DNA of 64,000 bases from Polytrichum commune. Lineage: Eukaryota > Streptophyta > Polytrichopsida > Polytrichales > Polytrichaceae. Position 1 is the stretch's first letter; each line of letters opens with the position of its first letter. Below the pieces are notes generated by a model, which was not told the DNA's origin, ran no database searches, and saw only the letters and a list, made by a program, of their open reading frames with translations. This document shows positions 1 through 43,062 of this stretch, piece after piece. The stretch lies in NCBI GenBank assembly GCA_950295325.1, contig OX485807.1, forward strand, positions 8,707,001 to 8,771,000. Reading direction: 5' to 3'. The translations under genes were made by a program, and so were the position numbers.

Positions 1-2020
1 ATAAGGTGTTAAAGCTAGACCTGACCCGGTCACAAACTTCACACCTCCCGACATATGCAGCCACCTGCTGATACATGCCAGTCCACCAATATTGGCCACG
101 CAACATCGAATGTGTCCTGCGTATGCCAAAATGGCCAAGTTCCTCGTGCACTTGTCGCACCAAGGAGGCCCTCTGATCCGGCCTAGGAACAATACGCCTT
201 GTCCCATCCGGCCACAATCGAAATAACAAACCGTTCTCCCAACGGAACCTTGTTATTCGATGTCCAATCCTATATTTTTCCATTGCCGAAATAGACAAAG
301 GAAAGGTACCATGTTGAAGCTTATGCAATACGGGAAGATCCTCCCATATATCCGCAATAGCTTGAGGCCGCTCAGTCTCATCATCCGAGCCCTGTATCGG
401 AATCTCAACAGATGCACCAGAAAATAAAGTGAGGTAGGCAGCCGCGTGCCAACCTGGAACCGCCTCTCGATCACAATCTCCATGCCACCTGGCCCCGGTC
501 AAGTCCTCATCCGAAGGACTTGGATTGCGTGAGAGTCCATCTGCATCCATGTTGGTAATCCCAACACGGTATACCACCTCAAAGTCATACTCCTGGAGCA
601 ACAAAGCCCACCTGGCAAGCTTGCCAGTAAGCTTATCCGACTCCATGAGCCACCGTAACGGCTGATGGTCAGTCACCAAAGTAAAGTTTTGACCATAAAG
701 ATATGGCCGGAAATGGGCAATAGCCCACACCGCCGCCAATGCTTCTCCCTCATAGGACGAATAATTGGCCTCCGCCGTGTTGTTGCTTCGCGACGCGTAA
801 GCAACAACATACTCCCGGCCAACGTCATCTTTCTGAGTAAGAACTGCTCCCAAACCCAATGAACTCCAATCTGTATGCAACTGGAAAGATTTGGAGACAT
901 CTGGACGTCGAAGCACTGGAGCCGTACCTAGTTTCTGCTTCAATGTCTCAAACGCCTGTTGTTGCTCACGACCCCAAGTCCACGGTTGGTCCTTGCTCGT
1001 GAGAATGGTGAGAGGCTTGGCGATCAAGCTAAAGTTCTTGACGAATCGCCGATAGTAATTCGCCAAGCCCAAGAAAGCACGAAGTCTCGGCACATCAACC
1101 GGTGCCGGAATCTTCTGCAAGGCGTCCACCTTAGCTTGTTGTACCCCAAGACCTCCTGGAACAATCATATGCCCCAGATATGCCAACCGGTCATGGAAAA
1201 ACTTGCACTTGCCGTGGTGCAAGCGCAGTCCCCACCGCTGCAACCGTTCAAAAACGGCTTGCAAATGCCTCACATGCTCCTGTGGTGTTGTGCTGAAGAT
1301 GATCACATCGTCTATGTAACACCGAGCAAAGGGCAAGCCAGAGAGAACCTGATCCATCACCCGTTGAAACTCAGCTGGTGCATTCTTTAGGCCAAATGGA
1401 AGAAACTTCCAATGATAAAGTTGATCTTTCCCATCTTGATCAACTCCCCAAAATGCGGTTTTCACCCGATCTCCCGTAAGTAATGGAAGTTGGTGATATC
1501 CGGATCTCAAGTCCAATGTGCTAAAGACCCGAGAAAATCCGATGGCATCGAACAACTCCTCCGGGATCGGCATGGGATACCGATCCGACTTGGTCTTCCG
1601 ATTAACTGGACGGTAATCCCCACACATCCGCTTCTCCGTCCAATTGCCAAAGATATCCTTCTTCGATGGCATAACCGTAGCACAAGCATACTCCCCGTTG
1701 GAAAGTTCGATTAGCCCTGCTGCCAAGAGCTCTCGGCAACGAGCCTGAACGCCAATCCGCTCGGAAACACTGAGCCTGTAAGGTCTCCGAAAAATGGGAT
1801 GGTCGTCCTCCAACTGAATGTGGATGGGTTTTCCTTTATAACCTTCAAGATCTTGAAGGCTAAAAGCAAAACATCTACGGTACGAGCGAATAAATGCCCG
1901 TACCTTCCGTGCCTCAGCACCAGTGAGACGAGGGCCTAATTCAAGTGGCCAATCATCAAACTCTGTGGTCTCCCTTTCCACTAGAAGAGAGCCACCTGGT
2001 GCTGGCACGGACTCTAATTG
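1..2020 (-). CDS. pol: Pol: reverse transcriptase, RNase H, integrase N-terminus (partial; readthrough product)
   Basis: The frame is open from the codon after the UAG (CAA at 2020-2018) to the left edge, in the same frame as the upstream Gag ORF. It has no obvious own start, so expression as a Gag-Pol readthrough fusion is the simplest reading. RT is clear: the region around 1640-1560 gives MCGDYRPVN and the catalytic YIDD box lies at 1318-1307, followed by VIIFS. The palm and connection run to about 1020 (AFLGLANYYRRFVKNFS). RNase H follows with LHTDWSS (aspartate at 871-869), YSSYEGEALAAVWA near 750-710 and LVTDHQPLRW near 675-640. The integrase HHCC zinc module is visible as HEELGHF near 145 and CEVCDR near 40. 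The integrase catalytic core lies outside the window. The RT is of the type using YIDD and the RNase H ends with DADGLSRNP, both usual in Ty3/gypsy. Confidence 0.95.
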
Positions 2021-2023
2021 CTA
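2015..2023 (-). promoter_or_regulatory. Leaky stop codon UAG-CAA-UUA between Gag-MTase and Pol
   Basis: On the minus strand the junction reads CAT TAG CAA TTA GAG. The stop plus the next six bases match the known plant-virus readthrough motif UAG-CARYYA, first defined in tobacco mosaic virus, at every position. Upstream and downstream frames are identical and the downstream frame stays open for at least 673 codons. This strongly suggests programmed translational readthrough as the way Pol is made, rather than the -1 or +1 frameshift common in other LTR elements. The motif is seen directly; readthrough itself is inferred. Confidence 0.88.
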
Positions 2024-5000
2024 ATGAGAGGAGGGGGCATTAACTATGCCCCCAGTATCGGTGCTAGCACTAGAGTCTGACAGTTCTTCATCACCACCAA
2101 TATGTGATGATGAAGCCACCACCGGAGGCGAAGAAACCGAAGCGGTGTAAACATGTTGAGCTCGAAGCTCCTCCATCACATGCTGCTTGAATTGAAAAAT
2201 TCGTTCGACTTCTCCAACCATGGCGTGAATTCCCTCCTCCATGGGTGTGGACCGCTGTGCCCCCTGACCAGAGTCCTCTGCCCCCAGAGACAACCACTGG
2301 TCACCACGATGCCTTTGCAATGAAAGGCATAAAGCAACAGTCCACACCATGGTATGAAGATCCATAGCTTGGCCCAACACGAAGCGTCGTTGGCCCTCAG
2401 AAAGGCCGGGAGCTGCGGTGGTGCCAGTGCGGAATCCCATGGCACGCTCCCGTTCATCAGCCAATGGTTCGGTGTGGGTTTTGGTGTGAACATCCCACAC
2501 CATACCCGGCCCCCTATCGCGAAAAGCGAATGACTGTGGAAACGTCATAAATGTGGGAAATGCCCGCCGCGGTGCCCCGATTTTGTTGACCAATGCCAAC
2601 GGGGGTAAATCATCTCGAACAACCGGCAAAGAAGTCCGGTTTGGCTCCAAGATGTCATCCACCTTTTGATCCAAAGGTGGAGACACTGCAGAAAATGCTG
2701 CAGCTAAAATAGATGACGGTGCGAGGTTGGTCCAAATCCACCGAGGCCGGTGGGCATAAGAACCAATGCTCGCGGCATCCACAAAAATGGGATCTCCAAG
2801 GTGTTGACGAACATAATAATCGCCTTTCAACACCTTGTCCCGAGAGTCTCCCAACAATGGTACATTCTCGAAGATATACCCTGGCAGGGTATGTTGGTGG
2901 GAAAACCACCACTGCATGAGGCGGATGAGGTCCCAAAATAAATTAGACCTGGGATCCTCTAGACCTCGGCCGGCTCCAGCACGTGAATGGCCCTGGCATG
3001 GCCATCCCGCAATCACCATATCCACCGGACCTAAGTGTCGTAAATCGGCCTCACTGATGAGTGTCACATCACGAGGGAGACGTGAAAAACACCCACGAAT
3101 GGCAGTTGGAGATAACTGCTGGGGGTACAATACCATCAATTGGTGAAGATGGTGACGAGCCACACAGGTGGACACTTGAGAGTTGTCCACATAGACATAC
3201 CGTCTAACCGTGAGGCCAGCCTCCAATACGGCCGTTAAGCCTGTGCCGATGCCCCCAAACAGTTCCACCAAAGTAATTCCCGCGTCTGGCGGCTGCCATA
3301 AAATGGGATGTGCCAATGCCGAGAGGACACCCGGCATAACCGGTGTTCTAGGAGTGAGAGAGTGAACAATATCCTCGCACCTCCGAAATAGCTCGGCGGA
3401 ATCACGCCAAGGACGAAGGGAATCCTTGGGATGGCGCACAAATGCATTCTTAGGTGTTATATCCCGTTGATCGTCTGTACTCCCCATGAATGCCAATGAC
3501 TCCTCCAACAATGCGGAACCATAAGGCAATGTGTCCACCATAGCACCACATCCAAAAACCATAGATAATGGTGCTATGGTCGCGGCCGCCGCGAAAGCAA
3601 CGGGAATAAGTTCCCTGCGGCCATCCCCAGCCGACCAACCTGGTCGGATCCACGCCTCTTCAGTCCAGTTGTCCAAACCAAAACCAAGAGGGTAAAGTGC
3701 TTGCTGACCAACTAAAATGTCATAGTTGGTCGCATCCGTCACCGCACACCTAAGAAGAAGAGGTGCGGGTGAATCTCCAGGCTTCACTCGGAAGCTAAGC
3801 TGTAATGGCTCTCGAGTATAACCCATGGCTTGCTCCACGTGACCAATGGATGTGACAATGGTGAATGGACAGGGAGCCAAATCCTCGGCCGTCAACCTCA
3901 ACTCTTGGGCAAGCCTCTTGCCGATCATAACTGGCTGTGCCCCTGAATCCATCATCACACAACGGGGAGCAACCCGAGTAGCGTTGCTCCCAGTACGACT
4001 GACCACCAAAATTCCGGTATCATTCACCATACGCACAACGCCGGGTCGAATGCCGCGGCGTTCGCAGACAGGTCTAGCAGCGACATCAGACAGATAGGCT
4101 GCACCCGCGGATACTGGGTAGTCATAAGACGTGGTCGGTGCCTTGTCATCTGAGGCGTGTGCGTCAAAAGACGCAATGGTCTCTGCCGCAAGTCTCGCTC
4201 GCCATTTGGCCACATCCTCAGGATCTTCGGAAGCAGGAATGTCCGTAGTGGCTTGAGCCACGGTCAGAGAAGGTAAGGATGCCTTCCCTTCCAAAATCCT
4301 ACCTGCTAAGTGAAAAATCTTAGCAGATTGGAACTCTGGCGATGACCACTCCATGGCCGTGAACAAAGGTGTGTGCAACACCTTGGATGCCAACGTGTGC
4401 GCCACATTGGTCGTTGAATGTGAAACCTCATCGTTCGGATGACGACCACTGACAGATTGGATGGCATCGGCCAATCCAAAAGATAATGGTAGTCGTGCCT
4501 GACCAATTTGGTCCGCGGACGCATTGTCCCGAGCTCGCGAGCTTGCCACATATTCATTTGTGGTCGAAGGTATGGATTGTGACACGGCTTGAGCACGTGT
4601 CACGGCCGCGGAACTCACCACCTCGCCCGAGGCTCCAAACATATAGTAATCCGGAGTGGAAGAACTAGCCTGAGCTCCGGAGGAAGACGGTGAGGCCAAG
4701 ATTTGGCCGGATGACGCCAAGCTTTTGAACCTCTCCTCCATGGCTCCAATCTTCGCCTCCAACGTCTTCTCCCGGTCGGAAGAAGGACGTTTCTCAGGAT
4801 GGAGAACAAAGCAGTTCTCTACTGCGTGATTGTTCCGCCCGCAATGAGAACACTTCAACTGCTTGGGTAACTGATTACCTGTCGTCCCCTTCGCCGAGCC
4901 CTTAGCGGGAACAAATGGTTTCCGCTTCGGAGTAGTGACGGTCTGGGCTTGCCTTTGCTTCGAAGGGCAGTCCTTCTTAGCATGGCCGGCCTGCCCACAA

Positions 5001-6106
5001 GACCAACAATACATGGTCTTGTCTACCTCGGCCTCCGCCAATCCTGCAGCCGCAACCGGAACTCTTCGGGATTTGCTAGAATCTACTAGCAGAGACACCA
5101 AATCAGTGGCATCGTGTTGACACAACGCACGATCACACTGCTCCACAATGGCGAATGCCTCTGCGAGTGTCGCCCGACCACCATAATCCATGATGATCTT
5201 GGGCAGTGCCAAGTCAAGGAGGCGTTTGTCAATCTTGGACAAAAACACCTTTACCAACTGGCTTTCGGCGAAAACACCTCCAGATTCCCTCGCAAACCTC
5301 GCCAACCTCGTGTACATGGTACGAGGTGTGTCATCTTTCTCCCGTCGAAAGTCCTGTATACACTGCATTTGATCGCGGCGGAAGCCTCCATATTCCTTCT
5401 CCAAATGGAGTTGGAATTCATGTAGAGGATCAAAACCCGGCGGAGCTCCTAAAGAAGCTAATGCCGCCTGGGTAGCCTGGGCATAACGTGACAGTGGAAG
5501 AATGGGGCTCGAGGTACTCGCCGCTGCGGGAGCTTGGCCCTGAGCCGTGGGATTGATAGGAAAAGCTCCCTCCACATCCACCACAAATACTCCATCCAGC
5601 ACCTCCGATTTAACCTCAGGGACGGCCATGAAACTGGAAGCTGCGCCTTCCTTCAATGCGGATACCAACTCAACCCGAGTCTCCCAGTACCGCTCCACCT
5701 GGCGTAGCTCCATCCAATGAGTGTCCGTCCACTGCTCATAAGTTTGGAGAGCTTCATGCTCCAAATGCTGAGGCAGAAGCTCGAACGCATACCAATCGTT
5801 AAAATTAGTATTGCGTTGGCGTTTCTCTCGCATCCACGTACGAAACCGGATTTTCCAGTCTTGCAGAGAAATGGTCCCTGCTCGACCGGAAAACCGGTCC
5901 CGTATCCCTCCCCTAGTCTCCTCCTCCATATCGTCAAAGGTTCCCACCCACAGGACGTGCGACCGAGTGATAGTCCCCCACGCCGAAGTAGGCTGAAAAG
6001 CCTCGTTGGGTGCTACCACTGGTTCAACGTCCGAGAGGTCCGAGGGATGACCTTCCGATGCTCCTGGGGACGGAGAACGATAATGTTGAGTACGAGTTGT
6101 AACCAT
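2021..6106 (-). CDS. Gag - protease - C5 cytosine DNA methyltransferase polyprotein
   Basis: This is a 1361-residue ORF. Residues about 200-330 have the Ty3-type Gag capsid pattern (LHEFQLHLEKEYGG onward). Two zinc knuckles follow: CWSCGQAGHAKKDC at 367-380 and CSHCGRNNHAVENC at 419-432. A retropepsin-like aspartic protease has its active site at DSGAQ, 720-724. Residues about 940-1265 form a cytosine-5 methyltransferase: motif I ELFGGIGTG (948-956, AdoMet binding), motif IV AGWPCQGHS with the catalytic cysteine (1033-1041), motif VI IFENVP (1078-1083), motif VIII HRPRW (1119-1123), then ERAMGF and LGQAMDLHTM (1244-1253) as motifs IX-X. The motif spacing and the end pattern resemble DNMT3/DRM enzymes more than DNMT1 or bacterial Dcm. 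Motif X has GQ where GN or GR is usual. The target-recognition segment is short (about 90 residues). The ATG at 6106 is taken because Gag-like sequence begins soon after and the upstream leader is non-coding. A serine-rich acidic tail (1325-1361) precedes the UAG. The MTase sits between protease and RT, so it is made on every Gag molecule and probably enters virus-like particles (inference). Confidence 0.95.
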   Translation of the reverse strand: MVTTRTQHYRSPSPGASEGHPSDLSDVEPVVAPNEAFQPTSAWGTITRSHVLWVGTFDDMEEETRGGIRDRFSGRAGTISLQDWKIRFRTWMREKRQRNTNFNDWYAFELLPQHLEHEALQTYEQWTDTHWMELRQVERYWETRVELVSALKEGAASSFMAVPEVKSEVLDGVFVVDVEGAFPINPTAQGQAPAAASTSSPILPLSRYAQATQAALASLGAPPGFDPLHEFQLHLEKEYGGFRRDQMQCIQDFRREKDDTPRTMYTRLARFARESGGVFAESQLVKVFLSKIDKRLLDLALPKIIMDYGGRATLAEAFAIVEQCDRALCQHDATDLVSLLVDSSKSRRVPVAAAGLAEAEVDKTMYCWSCGQAGHAKKDCPSKQRQAQTVTTPKRKPFVPAKGSAKGTTGNQLPKQLKCSHCGRNNHAVENCFVLHPEKRPSSDREKTLEAKIGAMEERFKSLASSGQILASPSSSGAQASSSTPDYYMFGASGEVVSSAAVTRAQAVSQSIPSTTNEYVASSRARDNASADQIGQARLPLSFGLADAIQSVSGRHPNDEVSHSTTNVAHTLASKVLHTPLFTAMEWSSPEFQSAKIFHLAGRILEGKASLPSLTVAQATTDIPASEDPEDVAKWRARLAAETIASFDAHASDDKAPTTSYDYPVSAGAAYLSDVAARPVCERRGIRPGVVRMVNDTGILVVSRTGSNATRVAPRCVMMDSGAQPVMIGKRLAQELRLTAEDLAPCPFTIVTSIGHVEQAMGYTREPLQLSFRVKPGDSPAPLLLRCAVTDATNYDILVGQQALYPLGFGLDNWTEEAWIRPGWSAGDGRRELIPVAFAAAATIAPLSMVFGCGAMVDTLPYGSALLEESLAFMGSTDDQRDITPKNAFVRHPKDSLRPWRDSAELFRRCEDIVHSLTPRTPVMPGVLSALAHPILWQPPDAGITLVELFGGIGTGLTAVLEAGLTVRRYVYVDNSQVSTCVARHHLHQLMVLYPQQLSPTAIRGCFSRLPRDVTLISEADLRHLGPVDMVIAGWPCQGHSRAGAGRGLEDPRSNLFWDLIRLMQWWFSHQHTLPGYIFENVPLLGDSRDKVLKGDYYVRQHLGDPIFVDAASIGSYAHRPRWIWTNLAPSSILAAAFSAVSPPLDQKVDDILEPNRTSLPVVRDDLPPLALVNKIGAPRRAFPTFMTFPQSFAFRDRGPGMVWDVHTKTHTEPLADERERAMGFRTGTTAAPGLSEGQRRFVLGQAMDLHTMVWTVALCLSLQRHRGDQWLSLGAEDSGQGAQRSTPMEEGIHAMVGEVERIFQFKQHVMEELRAQHVYTASVSSPPVVASSSHIGGDEELSDSSASTDTGGIVNAPSSH

Positions 6107-7277
6107 AAACCCACAATGGGATGGTCACCGAATCAACAACCCAAATGAATTAGTATCCAGTTACAAAGAGAAAAATGGTCAAAGGCAACCTGCACCTGCA
6201 ATCACCACCAAAACTTATGGTCTGCTGGTCATTAACCCAGCCTCACCACAAGTGAAAACAAGCACCGCCCACTTGGTGCACAAACAAAGGTCCCGTCGGT
6301 CATTAATCCGACCTCACCTCCACAGTACCCTATCACAATCTAGGACTACACAAAATGGGGCAGTGCTAGAACACTCCAGCACTACAGCCCGCCACAGGGG
6401 AAGGTACCAAAACAAAATACAAGAAACAATGCAAGTACAGCACTGGATCCTCTTCCCCAAAACAACATTCAAGCAAAAATTGAAAACGACCGCAACCAAC
6501 TGGCACCCGCCTGCAGTTGGTGGTCAAAATGAAGAGCCCCTGTTGCTTAAGAAAAGAAATTGGCACCAATGCACATCTCTCATCTCCCCACTACTACCTA
6601 GAAATCCCTCTTCACAACAATGTCGGGAATATGTGTTGACAAACACAATTCGGCCCTAATAATAATTTATTCTAAGCCGAACGGAAATCCCATATGCCAT
6701 CCAATCTCCAATGACATCCTCCTCAGAAATTTCGTGCAACACAACCCCCAAACGAAATCTCAAGTATATTTCTTAATCCCCTAGAAATTGACTTCTTAGA
6801 GAGAGAAGGAAAGATGAGAAGTTGAAAGGTAACATGAAATAAATAAATAAATAATAAAAAGTCCGGTTTTTAATTATTTAAATAAATAAATAAATAAAAT
6901 CCGGTTTTAATTCATTAATGTATTAATTAATTAAAACAAAATAAAACAAAATAAAAATCTACCTCCGTTAGCAACGGAATCGGGTAATGTGTGCGCCTGC
7001 TACCTTCCTTGGATGTGGCAGCCGCTGAGGCTCTATCTCCGGAATCATTCCTCGGGCTCCCTCTTCTAGCCTGCAGCCTGGATGGTCTGGCTTGCTGTCT
7101 GCTTGCCCTGGCCTGCAGTCTGCCGCTCTGGCCTACTGCCGCCGCGAGCCGCAGGCAGCCGCTGGGCACGGCAGCAGGTTTGCCAGCAGCAACACAATTC
7201 ACAATGATGTGTAAACTCCACAAGCACACATTTTTCTTCTTGTTGCTCCGCTAATCCGCGATGTTTGTCGTTCTCCA
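6107..7277 (-). other. Retrotransposon 5' leader (untranslated)
   Basis: This is 1171 bases between the primer binding site and the Gag ATG, with no convincing ORF. It holds an AT-rich (AAAT)n-type microsatellite around 6835-6955. Near 6225-6325 there are two short similar units, each containing GGTCATTAA followed by a CCTCACC box on the plus strand. Such a long leader probably carries packaging and dimerisation signals, and perhaps ribosome shunting or internal initiation, but no specific element can be named. Confidence 0.7.
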
Positions 7278-7296
7278 CTCCACAATCCCGCCACCA
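7278..7296 (-). other. Candidate primer binding site (minus-strand DNA priming)
   Basis: On the minus strand the LTR ends in GAGGACA, followed by the dinucleotide AG and then TGGTGGCGGGATTGTGGAG. The LTR-CA, two bases, TGG layout is the canonical one. The primer would be a tRNA ending in ...TCCCGCCACCA. It is not the initiator-methionine primer (TGGTATCAGAGC) used by many plant elements, and I could not match it to a tRNA from memory. Confidence 0.65.
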
Positions 7297-7298
7297 CT

Positions 7299-7706
7299 TG
7301 TCCTCACACTCTTGCTTGAATGTTGTAGCTCAAGATTTGAAGAAAAGAGAAGGACTCAAACATTCTTGCCAAGTGAGAAGGAAGAGAGTAGAACACTCAC
7401 AATAGCTCTAAATCTCTTCAAATGTATACAAATTAATCAAGCTATCTCTCACTCCACCAAGGGAGAATCCAAGAGTGTAAGTAGGGGAAGAAGAACTCAA
7501 GATTTATTGCAAAATCATGCAATCTACACCTCACACAAGCTCTCTCCACACACTAACTCACAAGACTTGACTTGGCAAGAATGCCAAGCCAAGGAGGAGG
7601 CTCCTCACTTAGGAGCCTTCCTCTCCACATCTAGATTCATCCATCCAAATCTAGATGGATGAAACCCAACGGATAAGGTGCGGCCTTCGACGCCGTATAC
7701 CGTGAC
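7299..7706 (-). repeat. 5' LTR of the methyltransferase retrotransposon
   Basis: This is a 408-bp segment beginning TGTCACGG and ending GAGGACA on the minus strand, so it has a 4-bp TGTC/GACA terminal inverted repeat. It lies immediately before a well-formed primer binding site. An AATAAA polyadenylation signal is present at about 7508-7503. Several small hairpins lie in the U3 part, for example GGCTCCTAAGTGAGGAGCC near 7620-7595. No clear TATA box was found. The boundaries rest on structure alone, because the partner LTR is outside the window. Confidence 0.7.
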
Positions 7707-9959
7707 AATTCACATGAGTTTGTATGTTATCCACCCCCTAGGGGAAAATCTCTATTTTCTCTTAAAGCCTCATTCAAGCTTGCAAGAAAAGAAATCTAGA
7801 ATCATCCTTCGCATAGATGACATTGCTCGAGCTATATCTCTTGCATTCGAGAGCAATGATTATTTGTTGGAAATGTCCAATGATTGTGGGACCATGGCCT
7901 TTATTACTAGCTCATTAGATCGGCTTTCTTGTCATTACATAAGATTGAAACAAATGTTGACATATGTGAAAAATTAAAAGAGAGAGAGAGAGAGAATTAA
8001 AACATGAATTGTATGCCCAAAAATATATTGTGCCAAACCTTAAAACCTATCAAAATAATTCTCATTCTTATATGTGTGGTATATGTAATAGTTGGTCCTT
8101 ATAATGTGGGTCAGTGGACATATTATTTTCATTTGATATATATGATCAATAATAATGAGACCACTAGATTCTATGTACATAAAAGTGGTGAATTTAAATT
8201 GTATATACATGTTGGAAATAATAGTAGAATATTTGAGGCGTGGAAACGGACCCACGATAGGATATCAATACTAACTAGTATTACATTAGGGTATCAACAT
8301 TGCACCTCATACAAAATATAGAATATGCATGTTATGGATGTGAAATTCAGCATTGGGGTTACGGGTTACGGGATATGTTCTATCAAAGACATTTAATATT
8401 TTTTTAACAATATTAAATCAAGTTTTTAAAAAACCATGGTTGGTCTATATACCTTGGCCCAATACAGGGTATCTTGAGTCAACATAATATTATCTAGGAT
8501 GAATCATAGTGATAAAAATATTATTTATTTTGGGCTTCTAGTTTTAGATAAAATACTATTTATTGTGGGCTTCAACTCCTTCTATTTTAATATATACCAC
8601 TTTATTTTCATATAATATCCCATGTGTGGTAACTAACATGACATACTTATGAGCGAAAAAAGTTTGCTACCCCGTTACCAACCACATAAGGATTGAGCAT
8701 TTTATTTACTTGGTGCAACTTCAAGTATCCAGCTAGTACATCATGTCATGAGTCTAGCAACCTAAGTTTTCTGATGTTTTGTTTTTGAGTTTGCATTTTT
8801 GTATTATCTCAATGTCTAAAAACGTGAAAAAATATTATTTTTCAATATGTTTTTCAAATAATTAAGCCCACGGTTGTTATGTGAAATGATATTTCACTTC
8901 ATATATATTGTTTTCAAGGTAAATATCCACCAAATTGTTGTCTTTATTTCCTTAGAAGGAATTTGTCTCCGAATTTTCATGTATATTATTGTCTAAAAAC
9001 TAACACATATTTTCAAAGGAAAACAAAATTAGTTGTATTATTACGGATAGAATTATTTACTAGTTGAGCTCATAAAACTTGATGAAAGTCTTTATTATCA
9101 TTACATCCTTTAACTTCTTGAGATGGTATTGGATGGGGAGGGCGATCTATAAATTCATTCAGTTCTCTCCATTCTAGTAGAATTTTACATTTTAAAAATC
9201 TTTTTATGAAGATTTATGTAAGTAAAAATCCACTTCTTCTCCCCTAGTATGACCCTATTAAAAAGAAAACAATCATCTAAGAAGTAAATATTATAAATAA
9301 ACAATATAATAATAAAATAGAAAATAAATTACTTAGATATTTTTAAGGAATTTGTACGACGCCATTCCAAAACTGGAGCCACCATTTGGTTTTTTGTATT
9401 TTCAAAATTTTCCAATTTTTAGATATAAAAATATTTATCATAATCTTAATAATTTTCTTGTTAGAATTGGATATTTAAGAACCAAAGTAGTCAAAACTTC
9501 ATAACCATATAATTTCTAAATTGATCTATATCAATTAAATTTTTTCTCAAATAAAATATTCCCAAAAAACTCTTCACATTTTTTAGAATTTTTCATAAGA
9601 TTTAGAAGTGTAGGACATGAGCCCACATGTTAATTTTCCTTACTTTTTGCCTTCAATTTTTCAATGCAACGCTTGTCTTTGCTTTCTATTGCTTTCTATT
9701 GCTTTGACTTCTTTGAAATTTTTTCTTTGCCCTCTTCAATGAATTTGTCATAATTTTCAAATTAATGGTTTTTAAATTCACCATCCTTATATTTTTTTTT
9801 CCATCATTCTTGATAGTATGTATTTTTTGTCATGTACTTCACTTTAAAAGTGAATATATGATTGGTTTTCCTCGTGTGATCATTCAAATGAAATCCATAT
9901 TTGAATGACGCATATGGACATTTCTTTCCTCCTGCTTTCACAAGGCAATGAAAAGTCAT
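7707..9959. other. AT-rich intergenic DNA without supportable genes
   Basis: Only short chance ORFs occur here. There is a (GA)n microsatellite at about 7979-7995 and many homopolymer A/T runs. No protein similarity, RNA gene or element end was recognised. Confidence 0.6.
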
Positions 9960-12170
9960 TTGTTGATTAACAAGATGAATCTACTCTTGCCTCTCGATGG
10001 CATTTTCCAAGGAATCTTCTAGGAATTTCTTCGAGAAATTCAATGTGCATACAGATGCGAGTGGTTTCGCCATTAGAGGCGTCTTGATGCAAGATGACGA
10101 CATGGTGAGGTATGAAAGTCTCACATTAACAAATAGTCAACTAAGGTGGCTAACCCACGAAAAAAATCATTACGCTATAGTTCATTGCCTTAAGGTTTAG
10201 ATGTACTACGTAGGCGAGAAGAAAACATAAGTTTTTACGTACAATATTTCGTTTATGTATGTCGATACTATAGAATAAGGATCGCCAAAAGGGTTGCAGT
10301 GGTATGACAACATCATTTCGATAAATGTCGAATTGATCTAAAAGTCGGGACGAGATAACTTGGTGTTGGACGCACTAAGTCGACGAGAAAAATCGATCAT
10401 TCCTCGTCTACTTATGCCAGCTAAGGAGGATCTCGACGAAGTAGAAAATGACTTTCGAGATGATGTGAGAGAAACGATGAAATAAGACGAATATATGATG
10501 ACGAACAACCGATCATTTGATGACTGAGGCTCGAAGAAGATCCATTGGAAGACCGACATATGAAAAATTTAAGACAAAAATATGGGCTTCATTATTTCAA
10601 GCAAATGCGGTTGTACATTCTGATAATTAAGCTTTAAAACAATTGTTTCACGAGTTCATTGATACGTTGTTAGCGGAGCATAAGGGAGTTTGTATCACCA
10701 TGGCCAAACTCCAAAAGAGATATTTTCGGCCTTGTATGAGCGCGGATGTCAAGGAGTACGTCAAAATATGCGTAAAATGCCAAATAACAAAATATAACAT
10801 CTAATGTAAGACCTTTACCAATTCCGAAACACATTTTTTATTCGATTACAATGAATTTTATGATACGTATTTCTGAAATGAGAGGCTAAGATGCCCTACT
10901 GATCATAGTGTGCCGATTGACCAAGTGAATAACTTTAATACATTGTACGAAACAAGCTACGGCGGAAAAGGTGGCACAATTATTTTTTGACAATTAGGTG
11001 CGGTATAAGATATTCATGTGAAATGTAATTATCGATCGGGGGTTGTTGTTTCATACACAATTTTGAAAACACATGATGCGACAAACGGGGGTGAGTCTTT
11101 TAATGACGACGGTTCGGCATCTACAAGAAGATGGCGAAACCAAAATGATCAACTTTATTCTCAATATGTATATGAGAGCGTTTTGTGAAATATATCAATA
11201 AGAGTGGCCCACGTTGATACATTGTATTGAATTATGATATAACATGACGGCGTGAAGGACAACCGAATAAATGTCATTCTTTTTGTGTTATAAGCAAGAG
11301 GCCATGGTTGCTAACAACTTATCCGTTAGTCAAAACGAATTTACGCGTGATAAAAAAAGACTCTCGAGATTTTACTCGATAGATGCGGCATAATGGGTTG
11401 CATGGAGACAAACGATCTTCTGCAACGCTAAAGCGATGATAGTGAAGGCTCAAGATTGTTATGCCAATGCGGTTAATAAAAAACGGCGGGAATAAACATT
11501 CCAAGTGGAGGAGAATGTATGGTTGGACTCCAAAAACCTAGGGATACCAAAGGAGTTATCCATTAAATGGTTCACGAGGTGGTTCGAGCCCTTTCCGATG
11601 AAGATCCTTCATCCGGACATGTATGTACTTGACCTAGACAAGAAAGTTGATAAATGTTGGCATCCAATGTTCCATATTATCTCATTATTCAAAAAATATC
11701 TTCGTGATGAAAAAAAATTGCATTTGTGGCAAGAAGACTCAAGACCGCCACCCGAATACAAGTTGTGGGATGGTGCGGTGAGGAAGGTGACGGTGATCCT
11801 TTATTCTAGGCAAATACATGGATGTAGTAAACAATATAAATGCTTAATGTATGTGTATTGGCTGTACGAGTATGAATTGATTACTGGGGTAAACCTACCG
11901 CATGTCCAAACTGTTATCAAAGTCTTTGAAGCGAGAAAGCTAGCCGACGCATGAATCGCGGCCAATGCTAAGGCAAACAAGCCGGCACAGAGACGAACCA
12001 CCTCTAGCAAGAAGTTGTCACCCATCATAGACGATAATGACATCAAGGTGGATGAGGAGCTAGTGACGCAAAGAAAAAAAGAACCAACCATCCCATTGAA
12101 AACGCCAAAGTATTCTAAACTGACAAAGAACAAACGTAGGATGACGAGATCCATTCAAGTGAGGTATTGA
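9960..12170 (+). pseudogene. Decayed Ty3/gypsy chromovirus pol (RNase H, integrase, chromodomain)
   Basis: This is a relic readable only by switching frames and passing many stops. RNase H is seen at about 10035-10200 (FNVHTDASGFAIRGVLMQDD, then THEKNHYAIVHCLKV). The next codon is TAG where a Trp (TGG) is expected. DNLVLDALSRRE follows near 10360. The integrase is recognisable at 10620-11330: a CVKCQ zinc half, PLPIP, ATAEKVAQLFFDN and DRG motifs. The C-terminal part (11505-11954) has VWLDSKNLGIP, WFEPFPMKILHPDMYVLDL and WHPMFHI. It is followed by a degenerate chromodomain (VTVILYSRQIHG, YVYWLYEYELITGVNLP). A basic tail ends at TGA 12168-12170. The gag, protease and RT parts are missing upstream. 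Confidence 0.85.
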
Positions 12171-12774
12171 AATGTTGGTGAGGACACCAACGTCTTTAAG
12201 TGGGGAACGATGAGCATGTAATTAGTGAGACGAGTAATAGAGGAAGGTACAACCTAAACACAAATGAAAAATTTAAGGGTTAAGAGTATAAGTACATGAA
12301 AGAAAGACTAAGTCAAATTTGGAGGATGGGCACTGCCAAGGGGACCTATCAAAGTAAGGTAAGATAGGCTTGGTTATAGCGAGACCAAGGTGCAGGTATC
12401 AAGTGTGAGGAGAATCTTCCGCAAGCCACGCTTCGGAGCGAAAGCATACGAACGACCATTCATGTCCCAAAGGGTGAACGAGGGAGAGGCGTAGCTAGCC
12501 TTAAACGCATTCTATTATCACATGGTAAGAAATACCCACCATTTACTGCGGTCATGTGAGGTTTGAGAAAGGAGGTGACTTGATTGATTTCCATCAAAGA
12601 GGTGAATCCCAAAGTTGGGGTAGTTCACGCAAAGACCAGCGCAAGAGGCAAGTGAAGGTTGACAAAATTCGGAATTGGTCCACACCGAAGGCATCAAGAC
12701 TTCACCTCATCTAGGATGGGAAAAACCGTGCTAAAGACTTTATGAGGACATGAAGAGTTTTAAGTGGGGGAGGT
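12171..12774 (+). other. Post-pol untranslated region and polypurine tract of the chromovirus relic
   Basis: About 600 non-coding bases follow the pol remnant and end in a purine-rich tract (AAGTGGGGGAGG, about 12762-12773) directly before a TG start. That is the expected plus-strand primer position. An AAGTGGGGAACG tract near 12197 is similar and could be a duplicated or older copy. Confidence 0.55.
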
Positions 12775-13212
12775 TGTAAGGCCTTTTAGAATGAGAGACT
12801 TAGACGGACGGACACCTAAGGGTTTGGGTGTACGGCTAGTTGCGCCCCTTAGAGTAAAATGGGTTGAATCCGGTTAGAAGTCACATTTAGGCAGGAGGTT
12901 TTGGTGTGAGGTACGGTGACCAGTGCCAAGATGATGCACAAAGAGCTTGAATTGAGAATTGAAAGGGTGAGGACTTAGAGACTTTGAGCACACGCGGGGC
13001 ATGTGGAAAAGCCCAAGCCTAGGTGCTAGCAGGTAGCATTGAGGTGGCCTGTGGGCTGACTTGTGAGGCCCCCACGAGTGTTAGGATCAACGGGGTCCGC
13101 GGTATTAAGAAAATGGACTCACCTTAGCAAGTGGCTTGTGCTCGTGAATTGAGTACTTAGCTTCGCGCGGGGCACGAAGGACGTGGCGTTAGGTGCTATC
13201 TCTCTACTATCA
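12775..13212 (+). repeat. Probable 3' LTR of the chromovirus relic (end uncertain)
   Basis: The segment starts TGTAAGGCC immediately after the polypurine tract, which is typical of a chromovirus LTR start. The 3' boundary is a guess: the first plausible CA end after a composition change lies near 13212. No second LTR copy is present in the window to define it. Confidence 0.4.
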
Positions 13213-14798
13213 TATGGATCCCTCACCATGGCTAAACAACCTAAAACACCAATGAAAAAAATTGCTTATCCATGTTTGAATTTAAATTTGATATTTAAGT
13301 ATTATAAACAAAAATAATCCACATACATGGCCTAAATTGCAAACACTCAATGATTACATGAAATACCCATTCTAAGTTGAATTTCAAATGGGTCTCTACA
13401 CTATTAACACATAAGAAAGACATGCCTACTTCCAATACAACAATAATCTAAAGATCTAATATGAGTGACATGTGGTTGAAAATGGATCTAAAAATGGACA
13501 TAAAAAAAACATGTGTTCTACAAATATTGAACTATATGCTCAAAATATACTCACCATTCTAGGCCTAGTAATCAATATGATTGGTCATTTAATAAACACA
13601 CAATCTTCATTTTGATAATCAATAAGATGTTCATATGAACTTTGAAATTTAGGAAATAAATAGCTATAGGCATGTTATGACTTTGTTGATCATCTCGTAC
13701 TAATTGCATATTATTTCTAGACAATAATCAACTATAAGGAAATGAAATGCAATGGGATGGTAGAACTGCTTTGTTTTTAAAACCTGACGAAGATGAGTCA
13801 AAAGATAAAAAATGTGGGCATAATTATTCACCAGAGTCTTAGTTATGACATATTTGTCAATTCAATACTTGTCAATGTAACTCATCCATACAAAATGCCA
13901 AAATAGACTATAGTTAGATGCTTACAATTCTACATGGATCAAAAGGGGTGATGAAGTGCAAAAAGACACTCTATAGCAGACATTGAGAGCCATACCGGAC
14001 AATATCTAATTTTTATTCACTTGAATGAGGACTGCTTGCCCCTGGGTTTTTCATGTGCAATAAGTAGAGGTGACAAGGCATGCACAAAAACTTACTGCAA
14101 GATGCAAAGCGAAGTTGATAAACTAGTGATCACAAAAATTAACAGATAATACACTCATGTGTTGAATTGGGACTAACTTTGTGTATACAATGCTTGGTAA
14201 AAATCTTCTTCTCTTGCATCAAAAGCATCTCAATGTAGATAAGCTTGCATCACAGAGATAACGAATGCTTCAGTAAATCTTGGAGAATTTTAAGTACTCA
14301 AGGATGTAGGATAAAAGCAATACTATGATCACCAACAACAACAATTTTATAAAATCTCAAGTAGCCAGTGATAGCAATTTACAACTCAAAATTTTTAGAA
14401 ACTTGGTTCGTAGATGCTTACAACTCTTGGGGGGTAGAGCTAAGTTTGCAACACGCTCAGTTTTTGTTCTTCAAAGAAGGGTGTTGTCTAAAACCTTGCA
14501 CTTAAGAACCATCATGGCCTTTTGACCTTCATTTACATAACCCCACTTCTTGATTGGATTTGCTATAAACTACACCCAACCCAATATCCTACAAGCAACA
14601 AAAATCCAACATTCTTTTGCATGTATTGTTTGTCATACATTGCAGAACAAACTATCTATTTAATCAAGTTGTTCAATCACAAGTATGACTTGGGGGAGAA
14701 GAAAACAAAACCTCCTCAATGATCATCATTCTTGATTAATTAGCAGCACTATGTGAGCGGGAGTAGGAGGTGGTGTCATAGTGGGACCCCCCTAACTA
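13213..14798. other. Intergenic DNA with one interspersed-repeat copy
   Basis: No gene is supported. Bases about 13560-13680 resemble the family also seen near 21.4, 44.3 and 58.3 kb (shared ...AATCTTCATTTTGATAAT... core followed by a TGAACTTTGAAA-type segment). Confidence 0.45.
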
Positions 14799-14823
14799 CG
14801 GTTAACCACTTCAAGTGGTTAAC
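14799..14823. repeat. 25-bp near-perfect palindrome
   Basis: GGTTAACCACTT and AAGTGGTTAACC are exact reverse complements around a single C at 14811. It abuts the left limit of the LINE remnant, and no binding factor is inferred. Confidence 0.7.
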
Positions 14824-17650
14824 CTAATTTGGATGAGGGGAGCTTTGGATGACAAAGCATGGATGATAGTGTTTGGTACGAGTATACATGTTGGTTCGCC
14901 CCAAGCGTGTTGGACTATCTAGACCTATACTAGCCAAAATGTCGTTGTATACGCTCTCTTTATTCCTATTGCTTGGGTTAAATTGGGTTTTATAAATTAC
15001 CTCCGATGGTAAACTATATGTTGAGTGGGATACTTCTGTTCTTGGGAGCATGTCCCCCATGCTCTTCATTTTGATGTCGGTTGAGAGGTCCCCTTTCTTA
15101 TCCCCTCATTGGAAATTATTCTTGGCCCTAGGTTGACGGGGCTCGGCTGCCCCCTATTGCTTTTCCCTAGGCTACCTTTGCCGTGGAGGCTTGTATTACT
15201 TCCCCACCTCTTGGCCCTTTGCCCATCTCCCTTAATGTCTCTTTTATCTTCCTCGCTCGCGACCTCTTTTCCTCTTCCATCTTGTTTTGTGGCCTCTCGG
15301 CCGTTTGGGGAGGCTTCTCCTTGGTTTTCTCTTAGTGCCACCTCACAACCTTATAGCACTGTGGCCTCTTGGCCCACAGGTGCTGCAGTACACAATACTT
15401 TTTGTTTAATTAACACTCCCTGGCGTTGTGTGCTCTCGACTTGCTAATCGACCGACAACAACTCTTCCCATGTTGGTTGTTTGGTTGGTGTTCACCGACT
15501 CTCAATTGTCGTTGCTTGGGGCAACAACTACCTAGTTGGCGCTTGTAGCCCTGATCCATTTTTTTCAGCTTGTTGTTCCCCTCCGACCGTCCTCAACTGT
15601 TCGTTCATCTGATTCTTGTGAGGCGTCTCTCCGACCTGCAACTCCCCCCTTTCAAACCCCATGTCGCGGTTTTCTTTCTTTCTTAAATTAATTTTTTTTT
15701 CCTTTCCCTCCCTTAATCCCTCTGTTACCTCACTTTTGTTTTCAGGGCCATCCTCTATTTATGGTTTTTTTTCCAGCGCCTACTTCTGGTTTGTCCATTT
15801 AATGGTCCATGTTGGGTCACCTCGGCCCCTCTCACGCATGGTTTCAACCTCTCCAATTACTTGAATTTCCCCATTCTGTGAAATTGATGTAGCCTTCTGT
15901 GTCACTCTGGCAACTACCTCCGGTATTTCCGGTACCTTCGTTGTTGTTGGTTGGTTTGCTGGTCATCCACGGGGTAGGCTTGCTCACAGGTAGATCACTT
16001 AGTGCATTTTAATAACGTCGTGCGGCATAATATAGAGAGGATTAAAATCATTTGAAATAAAAATTATAAAGGAATTCCAAATAATGAAGGGGCCATTAAA
16101 TGTAGACAATCTCATTATAAGTAAGTTAGATGGACATAAAATGTGGGCCATTATTTTTTTGTAAAATTAATATAGGGGCTGAAGATAAGGATCCTAGAAG
16201 GTATGTTTAGTATGGTATGTAAATGGGTTTAGAACTCACGGGGATGGATGATAATTGGGATTTCTGTCTGTCCAAAAATGGCTTAAAAGGAATATAGAGT
16301 ACAAAAAATTGCAGTGACTTGGACAATATAAGTAATGGAAGGGTGCAAACAAATGGGCCATTTTTGAAATTTAAGTAATTATAGGGAGGCTTTAATTCAG
16401 CCCTTGAAGGTAAATAGCCTCAAAACCAAAAAGAAAACCCCTAGCTGCACGTGGTGCACAAAAATGCCTTAGAGTGATCTACCCGTGGGCTTGCTTCCTA
16501 CTGCCAGAGTCTACATTGGTTTGCCCAATAGTCTTGGTATTTTGCAACTCAGTTATATCCACAACCTCGTCTGTTGTGTGTGAGGTTCTTATAGATATTC
16601 TCTGGGATAGTTCCATCTGCTCATACCCTTTTCCTTGCTCCGATGCGTTTTTCCGCAAGTCATTATCCATGATGACGAAAATATTTCTTCGTATGTTTTT
16701 CTTGCTTTTAACATGTTGGAAGCCATCACAATCTATAACTATAATTTTATTTATTTATATATTCTTGTTGATGTGATGGAATGCATGTGGCGGTCTTCTA
16801 ACTCCTTTCACCAATCTTCTCTACATTTCTTTGCAATCCCTTACTTTATGTTTCCAACTTTGACATACTCTACATCGTATTAGTATTTTGTCATAATTTA
16901 CCAACACTTTATGGGGTGGTAAGGTCTCCTCCTCAAATTCTAGATCAATTTTGATTACCCATCCCTTGATAACATTGAGGTATATGTAAAATTTTAAATC
17001 TTTAGCCGGTTTGTTTGACATGTCTAATCCGATCACTTCCCCTAGGGTTTCAGCAATGGCTATGGCCCGATTGTGGTGTTCGAAAAGCAACCTCCTCAAC
17101 ACTACCCAATGTGGGGAATGCTAGGTTGCTAGGGTTATCCAAGTTGACACTTGGAATCCAACTTTGAAGCATACATTTGCTACAAAGTAATTTGAACGGT
17201 CACAACATCAACACATTATGTAAGACATCTTTATCCTCACTTAAAAACAAAACAAAAAAACTTTACCTACACTCCTATAAAATGTCAAGGGCCTACCTCT
17301 CAATTCTTGGTGTAGGGTTTGGAGCCACATCATTGTTCATATGTTGGATCGGAGGCTTAGGCCCCACAAGCTTTGCAATCAAAAATTGATTTGTTAATAG
17401 AGTAATGCATGCAAACAACTTTTGTAAGTTGACTTTGAACGTAATTATAGAATCCTTCATCACTAAGAACCCACTAAAATGTCTTTCTAGATTTGATGGG
17501 AGAACCTGACCGACTTGTTCTTTGAAAATGTTGAGCTCATTTCTTGAGATCTACTTGCTAGCCTCAGCCATGACTTCTATCACAACATCTGACATTTCAA
17601 CATCATGTCATTGTGCTCCGCCATATATCCAGCCTCCCCTGTCTTTCAAC
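14824..17650 (-). pseudogene. Decayed LINE ORF1 (DUF4283-like domain with zinc knuckle)
   Basis: Reading leftwards from about 17650, the minus strand gives MSDVVIEVMAEAS, then a DUF4283-like stretch (NPSNLAFPTWVVLRRLLFEHH, AIAIAETLGEVIGLD). Next come KGWVIKIDLEFEEETLPP and a zinc knuckle, CRVCQSWKHKVRDC, near 16835. Low-complexity charged tails follow at 16670-16496 and 15341-14824. This layout is typical of plant L1-type LINE ORF1. Several frameshifts and stops are present, and a hAT-like MITE interrupts it at 15985-16487. No reverse transcriptase domain was found next to it. Minus-strand coding-like text may continue to about 18200, but that part is uncertain. Confidence 0.75.
15985..16487. 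mobile_element. hAT-like MITE, copy A, inserted in LINE ORF1
   Basis: The 503-bp insert is flanked by an exact 8-bp direct repeat GGCTTGCT (15977-15984 and 16488-16495). Its terminal inverted repeats are CACAGGTAGATCACT and, read from the other end, CACGGGTAGATCACT (14 of 15 identical). Eight-base duplications with CA-starting ends fit the hAT superfamily. Removing it rejoins the LINE ORF1 tail. It has no coding capacity. Confidence 0.85.
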
Positions 17651-38600: not shown

Positions 38601-39444
38601 CAATTGCTGTATGAGAATAAATGTGGAGCTTAAGAATATGAGATTTAAGTCCATCCCAAGGTGAAAATTGAGTTGACTTTGAAGTACGATCGCACTGCAT
38701 GTGAATGCTCTATTTACCGCTTTCTCCTAAAGCTTCTTTTCTCTGGGACCTGCTCAATTTCTCAAGATTAAGGTGTCCAATGGTACAGCATTGGATGGGA
38801 GTATATCTAAGTACAGCCATGGTGGTTCAGATTACCACCTAACTTAACAAGTATACCTGCGCAGTTTGCAAATTGGAATTCAGCAGCACAGATTTGCCAG
38901 CTTTCTGTTATCTTTGTTTCTCACTAGTACCTGCTCAATTGCTCAAAGTTAAGGTGCCCAATAAACAAGGGTTGTGGATATATCTGAAGTCGGCATTCCA
39001 ATTGTAGTAGCTGTGAGAATTGATGATGGGATAAAATAGAAGGTCGTCCGGAGGTCTGTGCTCCTTTTGAGGATATTGTGTTTCTTTGGAATAAAAAGCA
39101 AGGTCAATGTTAAGGTACGTGGTCTGCAATCTGCATGGTGTTTGTTGACAGTAACATTCCAGAGCAGTGAAGCTAGACTACAAACATGAGCAATTGGATG
39201 ACACATGTGTGGATGACACACGTGCGTCTCACTCATGCCTTGCCAAATGACATGAATTTATAAGTGACACTTAAAGGGCCTTCTCTCAGGGGAATTCATG
39301 TTGAATCGTGAATATTGGGACATGGGTCTTCTACACCAATCTTAATGGCATACTACATTAGTGTAGCTGAGAAGAATAGGAGCATAGCAACTTACATGGG
39401 AAATTCACAAGGGCTTATATAACGATGCCTGTAGCTTGATGCAG
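35688..39444. other. Region upstream of the CWH43-like gene; possible 5' exons not resolved
   Basis: The first supported CWH43-like exon needs an upstream exon carrying the start codon, which should lie here. I could not identify it. Candidate ORFs near 37.1 and 37.7 kb end at plausible donor sites (CTGGCAG/GT, GATGGCAG/GT), but their translations show no membrane or family signature. Confidence 0.4.
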
Positions 39445-42400: not shown

Positions 42401-43062
42401 TTGATCTTGTCATAACTGACTCCTATTTGTTTGTTGTTTTCACTGATTGTTTGGAACCCTGCAAAAGTCTGTACTGTGGGGTAGTGCAATGCCGTACATT
42501 TTTTAATTGAATTCCTTTGTGGGGGTTGTCACAGATTGATTTCTGGGCAACAAAACTGAAGATGTACAGCTGGTATGCACCAGCTACTAAAGCTGATACA
42601 TGGGGTTGTGCAATGTTGTCAACCCAGCGACTATCAAGTGGTGAGGCATGGGTTCTCCCATCTCCGCAGGGTGAGAATGCATGCTTCCAACAAGTTGACC
42701 TTGATTGGCGGGGGAAAACCGTGCGTGTCATGAACACCCATTTTGGAGTCCTTGAGTCAGACATCAAACTGCAAGCAGCTGCTTTAGCAGTTCTGGTAAA
42801 TGTAACAAAGCCCCTGATCTTGGCGGGTGATTTTAACATGGCACCATTAACAGATGCGTATAACACCACAATGAGCTCTGGAGTTGTGGACAGTCATGTG
42901 AGACAACATGGACCTTGGAAGGGTCCCGGGGACAGAGACCCAGGTGCAGGTCTTGTATTTTCTTCACCCTCTGTGAACTGTACATCATGGAAGGAACCGC
43001 ACTACGACCAGTCCCTGACATCAGATGGAGATCCTATTGTAGCCACTTTCGACTTAGTTTAA
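39445..43062 (+). CDS. CWH43/PGAP2IP-like membrane protein with C-terminal endonuclease/exonuclease/phosphatase domain (spliced, 5' exon missing)
   Basis: Exons inferred from frame and splice sites are 39445-39898, 40164-41375, 41593-41798, 41950-41998 and 42535-43062. All introns are GT-AG and the phases agree. Together they give about 815 codons ending at TAA 43060-43062. The first two exons encode many hydrophobic helices (for example VGLVYWTGLVEF, LLLLCGLVGIGGQFFWGPL), then an acidic Ser/Asp-rich cytosolic-type loop (40290-40740), then more helices. The last three exons form the EEP fold: LLNFNVQQGF, LQETD split over the 49-bp exon, MNTHFG, AGDFNMAP and SDGDPIVATF in place of the usual SDHP. 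In fungi and animals this family places ceramide on, or remodels, GPI-anchor lipids in ER/Golgi membranes; the role here is inferred from that. The stretch just before the donor at 41376 (GRGPEVTNSERRACGARLW) is odd and could mark a mis-set boundary. No in-frame ATG precedes the first exon, so a further upstream exon is required. Confidence 0.85.

Follow-up and report, generated by a model that had tools for sequence, protein, structure and literature searches.

A Ty3/gypsy retrotransposon of Polytrichum commune with a DNMT3-type methyltransferase domain before a leaky-type stop codon

Organization of ORF1

The window analysed here, a 64,000-nucleotide stretch of Polytrichum commune DNA, contains an open reading frame (ORF1) of 1361 amino acids that reads from 6106 to 2021, from ATG to TAG. 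An initial annotation of the DNA had placed it at 2021..6106, which was exact; the strand, absent from that annotation, is minus, as for all features described below, and the plus strand in the register of ORF1 is full of stops. From the N-terminus, ORF1 comprises a Gag region, two CCHC knuckles and an aspartic protease, followed by a C5-methyltransferase domain that is complete. The Gag-like region (residues 61-350, 5057..5926) was assigned only by its conservation as a block in relatives, and a Pfam scan of ORF1 matched no Gag family. The knuckles share the spacing C-x2-C-x4-H-x4-C (residues 367-380 and 419-432); the first (4967..5008) was recognized by Pfam, alignment and sequence, and the second (4811..4852) by alignment and sequence. 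Their eight Cys/His residues are invariant in 14 of 14 aligned sequences, namely the window copy and 13 relatives. The protease region (3647..4036), supported by Pfam, relatives and sequence, carries the motif DSGAQ at residues 720-724 (within 3929-3955), and D720 is nearly invariant in the same alignment, in which P0019 lacks that stretch. Pfam matched the CCHC at 17.8 bits and the aspartic protease at 14.7 and 13.6 bits, in each case below its cut-off; the two knuckles and the protease are nevertheless plain in the sequence of this single ORF, as initially described.

The methyltransferase domain

The C5-methyltransferase domain (residues 935-1290, 2237..3304) was identified by Pfam, motifs and fold. 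PF00145 matched ORF1 with E=1e-10 and a score of 42 bits, the cut-off being 22, and the proposed fusion to Gag-protease is right. All motifs listed in the initial annotation (I, IV, VI, VIII and IX-X) were located in order, with LFGGIGTGL at residue 949, AGWPCQGHS at 1033 (Cys1037, codon 2996-2998), IFENVP at 1078 (Glu1080), SYAHRPRW at 1116, RRAFPTF at 1180 and VLGQAMDL at 1243. With its frame open over 1361 residues and its motif set complete, the copy appears intact, as had been suggested. Among 19 in-frame copies, motif I is intact in 17, PCQ in all 19 and ENV in 18. The dN/dS ratio is 0.29 for the domain and 0.98 for the adjoining C-terminal tail (2024..2236), where copy comparison thus gives a value of about 1; the methyltransferase domain is under purifying selection.

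The linear order I-IV-VI-VIII-IX-X is that of DNMT3. The predicted structure of the domain (pLDDT 90) has its best fold matches in DNMT3A/3B, and among solved structures, the only ones compared, those closest in sequence and fold are DNMT3 enzymes in complex with CpG DNA; DNMT2 scores far lower (36 bits vs 81). Compared with these solved structures only, the domain is DNMT3-type by sequence and predicted fold. Of the DNMT3/DRM assignment made initially, the DNMT3 part therefore stands, and DRM membership was rejected because the motif order is linear and that of DRMs is rearranged. A host-genome exon read as DRM shows the rearranged order. Some relatives carry E-C or C-C instead of P-C in motif IV.

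In a midpoint-rooted tree without cellular enzymes, the element falls in a 37-member group with a support of 0.129. As the key nodes are weakly supported, the tree fits either history, and the domain may have been captured once and then shifted position, or captured several times. A profile search found no cellular DNMT3 so named among the best 120 of 188 matches; the named matches among these 120 were from Klebsormidium, Closterium and one bacterial MAG. One of the Klebsormidium matches is labelled DNA (cytosine-5-)-methyltransferase.

The stop codon and the pol frame

ORF1 ends in TAG-CAA-TTA (2015..2023), a type I leaky-stop context recognized from sequence, copies and consensus. The corresponding UAG-CAA-UUA is identical to the leaky stop of tobacco mosaic virus (tobamovirus) and matches the type I readthrough consensus UAG-CAR-YYA (PMC3542737). 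This context, UAG-CARYYA, was kept in all 31 copies sampled from two subfamilies, even with a codon changed from Leu to Ser. Behind the stop, a pol frame (1..2020) continues in the same frame with reverse transcriptase (RT), RNase H and an integrase zinc finger. It comprises 973 amino acids in all, leaves the window and ends at C5:8706099, with the integrase core beyond the window edge. Matches to RT, RNase H and integrase are strong, the last including rve at 55 bits (DDE integrase). ORF1 and pol are both open in the window copy, and the pol frame has no Met before codon 117. Since the stop is kept in 31/31 copies and pol continues in frame with RT, RNase H and integrase, the methyltransferase lies on the Gag side; its position directly before a leaky-type stop suggests that it would likely be produced in large amounts alongside the particle protein. 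Furthermore, 14 of the 15 nearest relatives, compared by eye, end at the same place with a similar short ending. Neither the in-frame polymerase behind the leaky-type stop nor the split repeats described below had been noted initially.

An 8-bp hairpin, GGGGGCAT/ATGCCCCC, lies upstream of the stop (2033..2053) and was not clearly better than shuffled sequences: the upstream-plus-stop piece gave a z of -1.69, with 12 of 200 shuffles equally good, and the piece downstream of the stop gave a z of -0.26.

Element ends and split repeats

The element begins with a 333-bp repeat A (7375..7707; TGTCACGG...CTTCTC) that is 99.7% identical to the A of the C1 copy, in which AATAAA occurs at position 200 of the repeat. 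It is flanked by GAAT (7708..7711), read by eye as the 5' copy of a target-site duplication, whose 3' counterpart is found beyond the window, immediately below C5:8705483. A primer-binding-site (PBS)-like sequence, ACTTGGCAAGAAT (7362..7374), directly follows A, and the 5' leader (6107..7361) extends from it to ORF1. At 7570..7582, a 13-nt stretch is exactly the PBS-like site in reverse complement, and in other copies 13 of 18 junctions show a comparable match of 12-15 nt. This complement is a possible self-primer, self-priming being the mode of Tf1.

In 6 of the 11 copies sampled, the repeats are split in the order A-internal-B-A-B, and others show A...B. In the window copy, which is flanked by GAAT, A occupies one terminus and B the opposite one, and a second A-B pair is lacking. 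The B/A junction is palindromic (GACAGCTGTC). One identical LTR at each end was therefore not the arrangement found: a repeat search of window positions 1-16000 detected no plain LTR pair, and a blastn comparison of the flanks of the window copy likewise gave none. The split repeats co-occur with the PBS-like site, a polypurine tract, a DDE integrase and 4-bp target-site duplications, and each of the nine copies readable at both ends has its own 4-bp duplication. DIRS membership, which implies a tyrosine recombinase and no target-site duplication, was rejected on the DDE integrase and the 4-bp duplications. These two features, together with the order Gag-PR (protease), then RT, RNase H and integrase, are those of Ty3/gypsy, and on this sequence evidence the element is a Ty3/gypsy retrotransposon. 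How the cDNA ends are made is a question raised by the joint occurrence of split repeats and a DDE integrase; for DIRS elements, a circle model of the cDNA is known.

Copies and relatives

The search for further copies proposed in the initial annotation yielded 35 ORF1 matches in the 408-Mb host genome, the window included. Of these, 33 cover at least 1183 of the 1361 residues and nine span residues 1-1361 without an in-frame stop, the window copy being counted in both. The genome holds at least 123 PF00145-domain matches. The class had been called known but rare: it is known, and it is perhaps rare across genomes, though not within this one. CpG depletion, a weak test for a trace of methylation, gave no clear signal, with observed/expected values of 0.75-0.82 that were the same in intact and decayed copies.

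The Gag-PR-methyltransferase order also occurs in proteins from other sources. In other relatives the domain either follows RNase H and precedes integrase or shares a single frame with pol, as in P0029 (2352 aa) and P0035 (2318 aa), whose frame is continuous. As read from these proteins, Gag-side placement is not general among relatives. Viral contigs gave no confirmed match to the element. At 28 viral-contig loci, matches of 30-60% covered parts of the domain only and presumably represent phage or bacterial enzymes.

Proposed role of the methyltransferase

DNA methylation is a main host defence against such elements, and yet this element carries a de novo-type methyltransferase under selection. 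The initial annotation had suggested that the enzyme may mark the element's own cDNA, tame its own copies or disturb the host epigenome. The sequence fits all three, and the marking of cDNA is likely the best of them. In the model that we favour, to which we give an even chance, UAG-CAA-UUA would occasionally be read through to yield the polymerase, and the methyltransferase would be produced in Gag-like amounts. The protease would release the enzyme, which would be packaged in the particle and, if catalytically active with DNA as its substrate, would methylate the element's own cDNA there before integration. New copies might then benefit by resembling host-methylated DNA. From a leaky-type stop that keeps the enzyme with Gag, one would expect each particle to hold many molecules of it and the cDNA to be methylated. 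Against this model count the lack of a clear CpG depletion, the relatives with the domain placed elsewhere, the failure of the Klebsormidium relative to methylate in yeast (discussed below) and the missing second A-B pair of the window copy. A more specific and rather doubtful version joins a particle DNMT3 at Gag stoichiometry, obtained via the leaky stop, and CG-methylated cDNA to a palindromic B/A junction left by a circle that was joined and then reopened inside the repeat by the DDE integrase. Circle joining and reopening are otherwise proposed for tyrosine-recombinase elements.

Alternatively, the enzyme could act in the nucleus in trans, methylating integrated family copies as self-restraint or host chromatin, and so limit host damage. 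The many copies in one genome are compatible with this, and de Mendoza et al. (PMC5890265) name a slowing of retrotransposition and an influence on the host epigenome among the options. We consider it unlikely, however, as its place in a Gag polyprotein, after the zinc knuckles and next to the protease, speaks for the particle, and the CpG values, a weak test, carry no sign of heavy family-specific methylation.

Less likely still, the domain might methylate RNA (genomic RNA or the tRNA primer) or serve as a nucleic-acid-binding packaging module. Its grouping with Gag and the zinc knuckles and the motif IV variants of some relatives would suit such roles, and RNA methylation has been considered for LINE-borne enzymes (PMC5890265). 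Against these readings stand the nearest sequences and folds, those of DNMT3 on CpG DNA, the low DNMT2 score and the PCQ cysteine, kept in all 19 in-frame copies.

That the UAG is ordinary decay, with working copies having one long frame as in P0029 and P0035, is very improbable: it was rejected because UAG-CARYYA stands at one and the same position in all 31 copies of both subfamilies, and the nearest relatives mostly end there too. A chimera of a host DRM gene and a retroelement made in assembly, named initially as a possible refutation, has nothing in its favour and practically no standing, since the 35 matches lie at separate places, nine of nine copies have their own duplications, the motifs are not in DRM order, and the same domain order in proteins from other sources, with the genome matches, excludes chance as well.

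Comparison with known systems

Methyltransferase-bearing retrotransposons have been reported in dinoflagellates and charophytes (PMC5890265), as the initial annotation had stated, and their purpose was left as a question in 2018 (PMC5890265). A 2019 review, in the text available, gives such elements as absent from land plants (PMC6338049), and a 2025 paper reports them in streptophytes, with an LTR family called Copia (PMC12344493). A search of mostly open-access literature found no description of this element family in a named land plant. Marchantia and Sphagnum gypsy elements, known here from gene models alone (P0018, P0019, P0026, P0099 and others), have the Gag-PR-domain order where enough is present; P0018 and P0019 show 32-33% identity across the aligned proteins, and identity in the domain is 34-48%. 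These relatives, judged from their gene models, extend the gypsy-DNMT3 class to land plants. With at least 123 such domains in one streptophyte genome and relatives in the tractable Marchantia, the role of retrotransposon methyltransferases would be directly testable.

Among more distant systems, SymbioDIRS-Dnmt3 and SymbioLINE-Dnmt of Symbiodinium also carry C5 methyltransferases, in different retrotransposon orders and by independent captures according to the authors; SymbioDIRS domains were active on CG in yeast (PMC5890265). The rice gypsy element RIRE2 is cited as a readthrough candidate, in a text whose available part mentions no methyltransferase (PMC2754532). Gypsy elements of Phalaenopsis have likewise captured a nucleic-acid-modifying enzyme, AlkB, which, unlike the enzyme here, is an RNA demethylase in an additional ORF (PMC9289625).

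The closest known system is KnitGypsy-Dnmt3 of Klebsormidium nitens (de Mendoza et al. 2018, PMC5890265), which likewise has a gypsy domain set, an unrearranged DNMT3-type domain, split direct repeats in DIRS layout and purifying selection. The present element shares the DNMT3-type domain in a gypsy polyprotein and, in the six of 11 copies with a second A-B pair, which the window copy lacks, the DIRS-like split repeats; the alignment with P0083, a protein of Klebsormidium, covers 255 residues at 43%. The Klebsormidium enzyme gave no methylation in yeast, a result that its authors did not count either way because human DNMT3B failed too (PMC5890265). The domain of KnitGypsy-Dnmt3 is described within the Pol ORF, whereas here it ends the Gag-PR frame, with the UAG before RT (PMC5890265). 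Relative to that element, the target-site duplications, the PBS-like site and the polypurine tract are newly described, and a Gag-side methyltransferase before a putative tobamovirus-type leaky stop is new.

Coding capacity of the window

The 4086-base frame proposed in the initial annotation at 2021–6106 was borne out, on the minus strand, and its product (ORF1) comprises 1361 residues. The N-terminal part, on the same minus strand, is Gag-like; two CCHC knuckles lie at residues 367–380 and 419–432, and an aspartic protease is marked by DSGAQ at residue 720. ORF1 also carries a C5 cytosine methyltransferase, matched by PF00145 at E=1e-10, in which all the motifs previously listed were found in the order described. 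Directly behind ORF1, in the same frame, lies pol (973 aa in all), with the RT, RNase H and integrase zinc finger inside the window and the rve core just beyond its edge. Elsewhere, the window includes exons of a PGAP2IP/CWH43-like gene (39440–43059, plus strand; three Pfam PGAP2IP domains, one below cut-off) and the remains of another gypsy element (9979–12154), with a piece resembling RNase H, recognized by eye, and an SH3_Tf2-1 match too weak to reach cut-off. Three consecutive frames of 408–424 aa (52177–56374, plus strand) show zinc-finger-like Cys/His spacing and gave no Pfam match above cut-off; they are perhaps a DNA transposon.

The stop codon between ORF1 and pol

The 3' end of ORF1 reads CAT TAG CAA TTA GAG, and the first Met of pol does not occur before codon 117. 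This context, UAG-CAA-UUA, is the type I readthrough site of tobamoviruses, a site with the consensus UAG-CAR-YYA (PMC3542737). TAG-CAATTA is kept in 20/20 copies of the subfamily of the window copy (19 fetched plus the window; stretch L042, a part of the window copy that stops short of the UAG, is outside the 20), and TAG-CAATCA in 11/11 sampled copies of a second subfamily of the host genome (61% identity over 391 residues around the domain), the 31 copies being close kin within each subfamily and not independent. In the second subfamily the pol residue changes from Leu to Ser, yet CARYYA is retained, an argument for selection acting on the nucleotide sequence of this context. Of the 15 closest relatives found in other sources, compared as proteins only, 14 show by eye a similar short ending at the same place. 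Readthrough of the ORF1 UAG is a strong prediction from sequence, and it would leave the methyltransferase on the Gag side.

Copies in the host genome and relatives

In the host genome (408 Mb, 64 contigs; the window corresponds to C5:8707001-8771000), at least 35 ORF1 matches were identified, at least 33 covering 1183 or more of the 1361 residues and at least 9, window included, spanning 1–1361 without a stop; these are lower bounds, as 34 of 1059 candidates were scored. Besides the window copy, a full-length ORF1 free of in-frame stops lies on the opposite strand about 14 kb past the window end (G000, the host genome, C5:8785413-8789492). PF00145 gave at least 123 matches, all above cut-off (123 of 353 candidates scored), only a part of which were shown to sit in elements. 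In one of these matches a motif X-like sequence precedes motif I, and we read it as an exon of a host DRM gene; as DRMs are reported from streptophytes only (PMC12344493), this would place the host among the streptophytes.

The domain search returned 103 proteins. By our own assignment, the methyltransferase stands behind Gag-PR or ahead of RT in 49, while in 47 (P0066 and 46 others) it lies either immediately before integrase or in the interval separating integrase from RNase H, many of these bearing a PHD finger behind the integrase; placement was left unassigned in 7. In the 47, the same type of element has an alternative arrangement. Where a source is named, it is Marchantia (11 proteins), Closterium (3), Klebsormidium, Sphagnum or Monoraphidium (1 each). 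In the RT tree, the 15 members of the first order, including the window, form one clade (support 0.987); the domain tree was built without cellular enzymes. A search with Gag-PR only yielded 17 proteins, 15 with the methyltransferase domain; the remaining two end prematurely, at ORF1 residues 867 and 941, and therefore provide no evidence for domain-less relatives. In motif IV, Glu or Cys replaces Pro before the catalytic Cys (ECQ, ECK, CCQ) in P0029, P0033, P0035, P0049, P0066 and P0077. P0106, with 68% identity to the domain, carries the label of a bacterial MAG protein (from a 2.4-kb contig of Candidatus Obscuribacterales) and is probably a eukaryotic contaminant of the bin.

Terminal repeats and priming

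A young copy on contig C1 displays the order A (333 bp), PBS-like site, internal region, polypurine tract, B (106 bp), GC, A and B; its two A repeats are 100% identical to each other, as are its two B repeats. This copy (L038/L039, C1:30661000-30680000) lies within a tandem array: the sequence flanking it on the left is repeated many times on its right, indicating that the copy landed in satellite-like DNA. Among 11 copies with a sampled 3' end, the A...B-GC-A-B layout occurs in 6, two stop after the first B (the window copy and C1:63364019), one has B without the usual tract ahead of it, and two gave no match. Both ends could be read in 9 copies, and every one of these has a 4-bp target-site duplication (compared by eye), GAAT in the case of the window copy (C5:8705483-8714707, 9225 bp). 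B-GC-A (441 bp) would be the repeat lying between the tract and the primer site. Integrated copies would be circular permutations, with the opening at the B/A boundary in the palindrome GACAGCTGTC, and one-B endings could arise by recombination between the two B repeats. In the window, a 13-nt stretch inside A (7570–7582) is exactly complementary to the PBS-like site after A (7362–7374), and complements of 12–15 nt occur in 13 of 18 junctions examined in other copies. This recalls the self-priming of Tf1 and suggests that the element may prime itself instead of using a tRNA.

Proposed function and comparison with known elements

Made with Gag, behind the zinc knuckles and beside the protease, the methyltransferase would meet the cDNA in the particle and appears best placed to act on it; new copies would gain by already resembling host DNA. 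Against cDNA marking stand the Klebsormidium enzyme, which gave no methylation in a yeast test judged inconclusive by its authors because human DNMT3B failed too (PMC5890265), the absence of a clear CpG depletion signal in the copies, and the fact that other relatives carry the domain elsewhere. Alternatively, the enzyme may restrain the element itself, act on host chromatin, or have an RNA or packaging function.

Methyltransferase-bearing retrotransposons have been known since 2018 (PMC5890265). As far as the literature searched shows, what is new is that the methyltransferase sits on the Gag side, before a type I leaky-type stop, that split repeats occur together with a DDE integrase and 4-bp duplications, and that the family reaches this size within one streptophyte genome. 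In the K. nitens elements the methyltransferase is described in the Pol ORF (PMC5890265), whereas here it lies on the Gag side. The DIRS-like layout is shared with KnitGypsy-Dnmt3, the gypsy element of Klebsormidium nitens for which it was reported (PMC5890265), and is combined here with a DDE integrase and target-site duplications.
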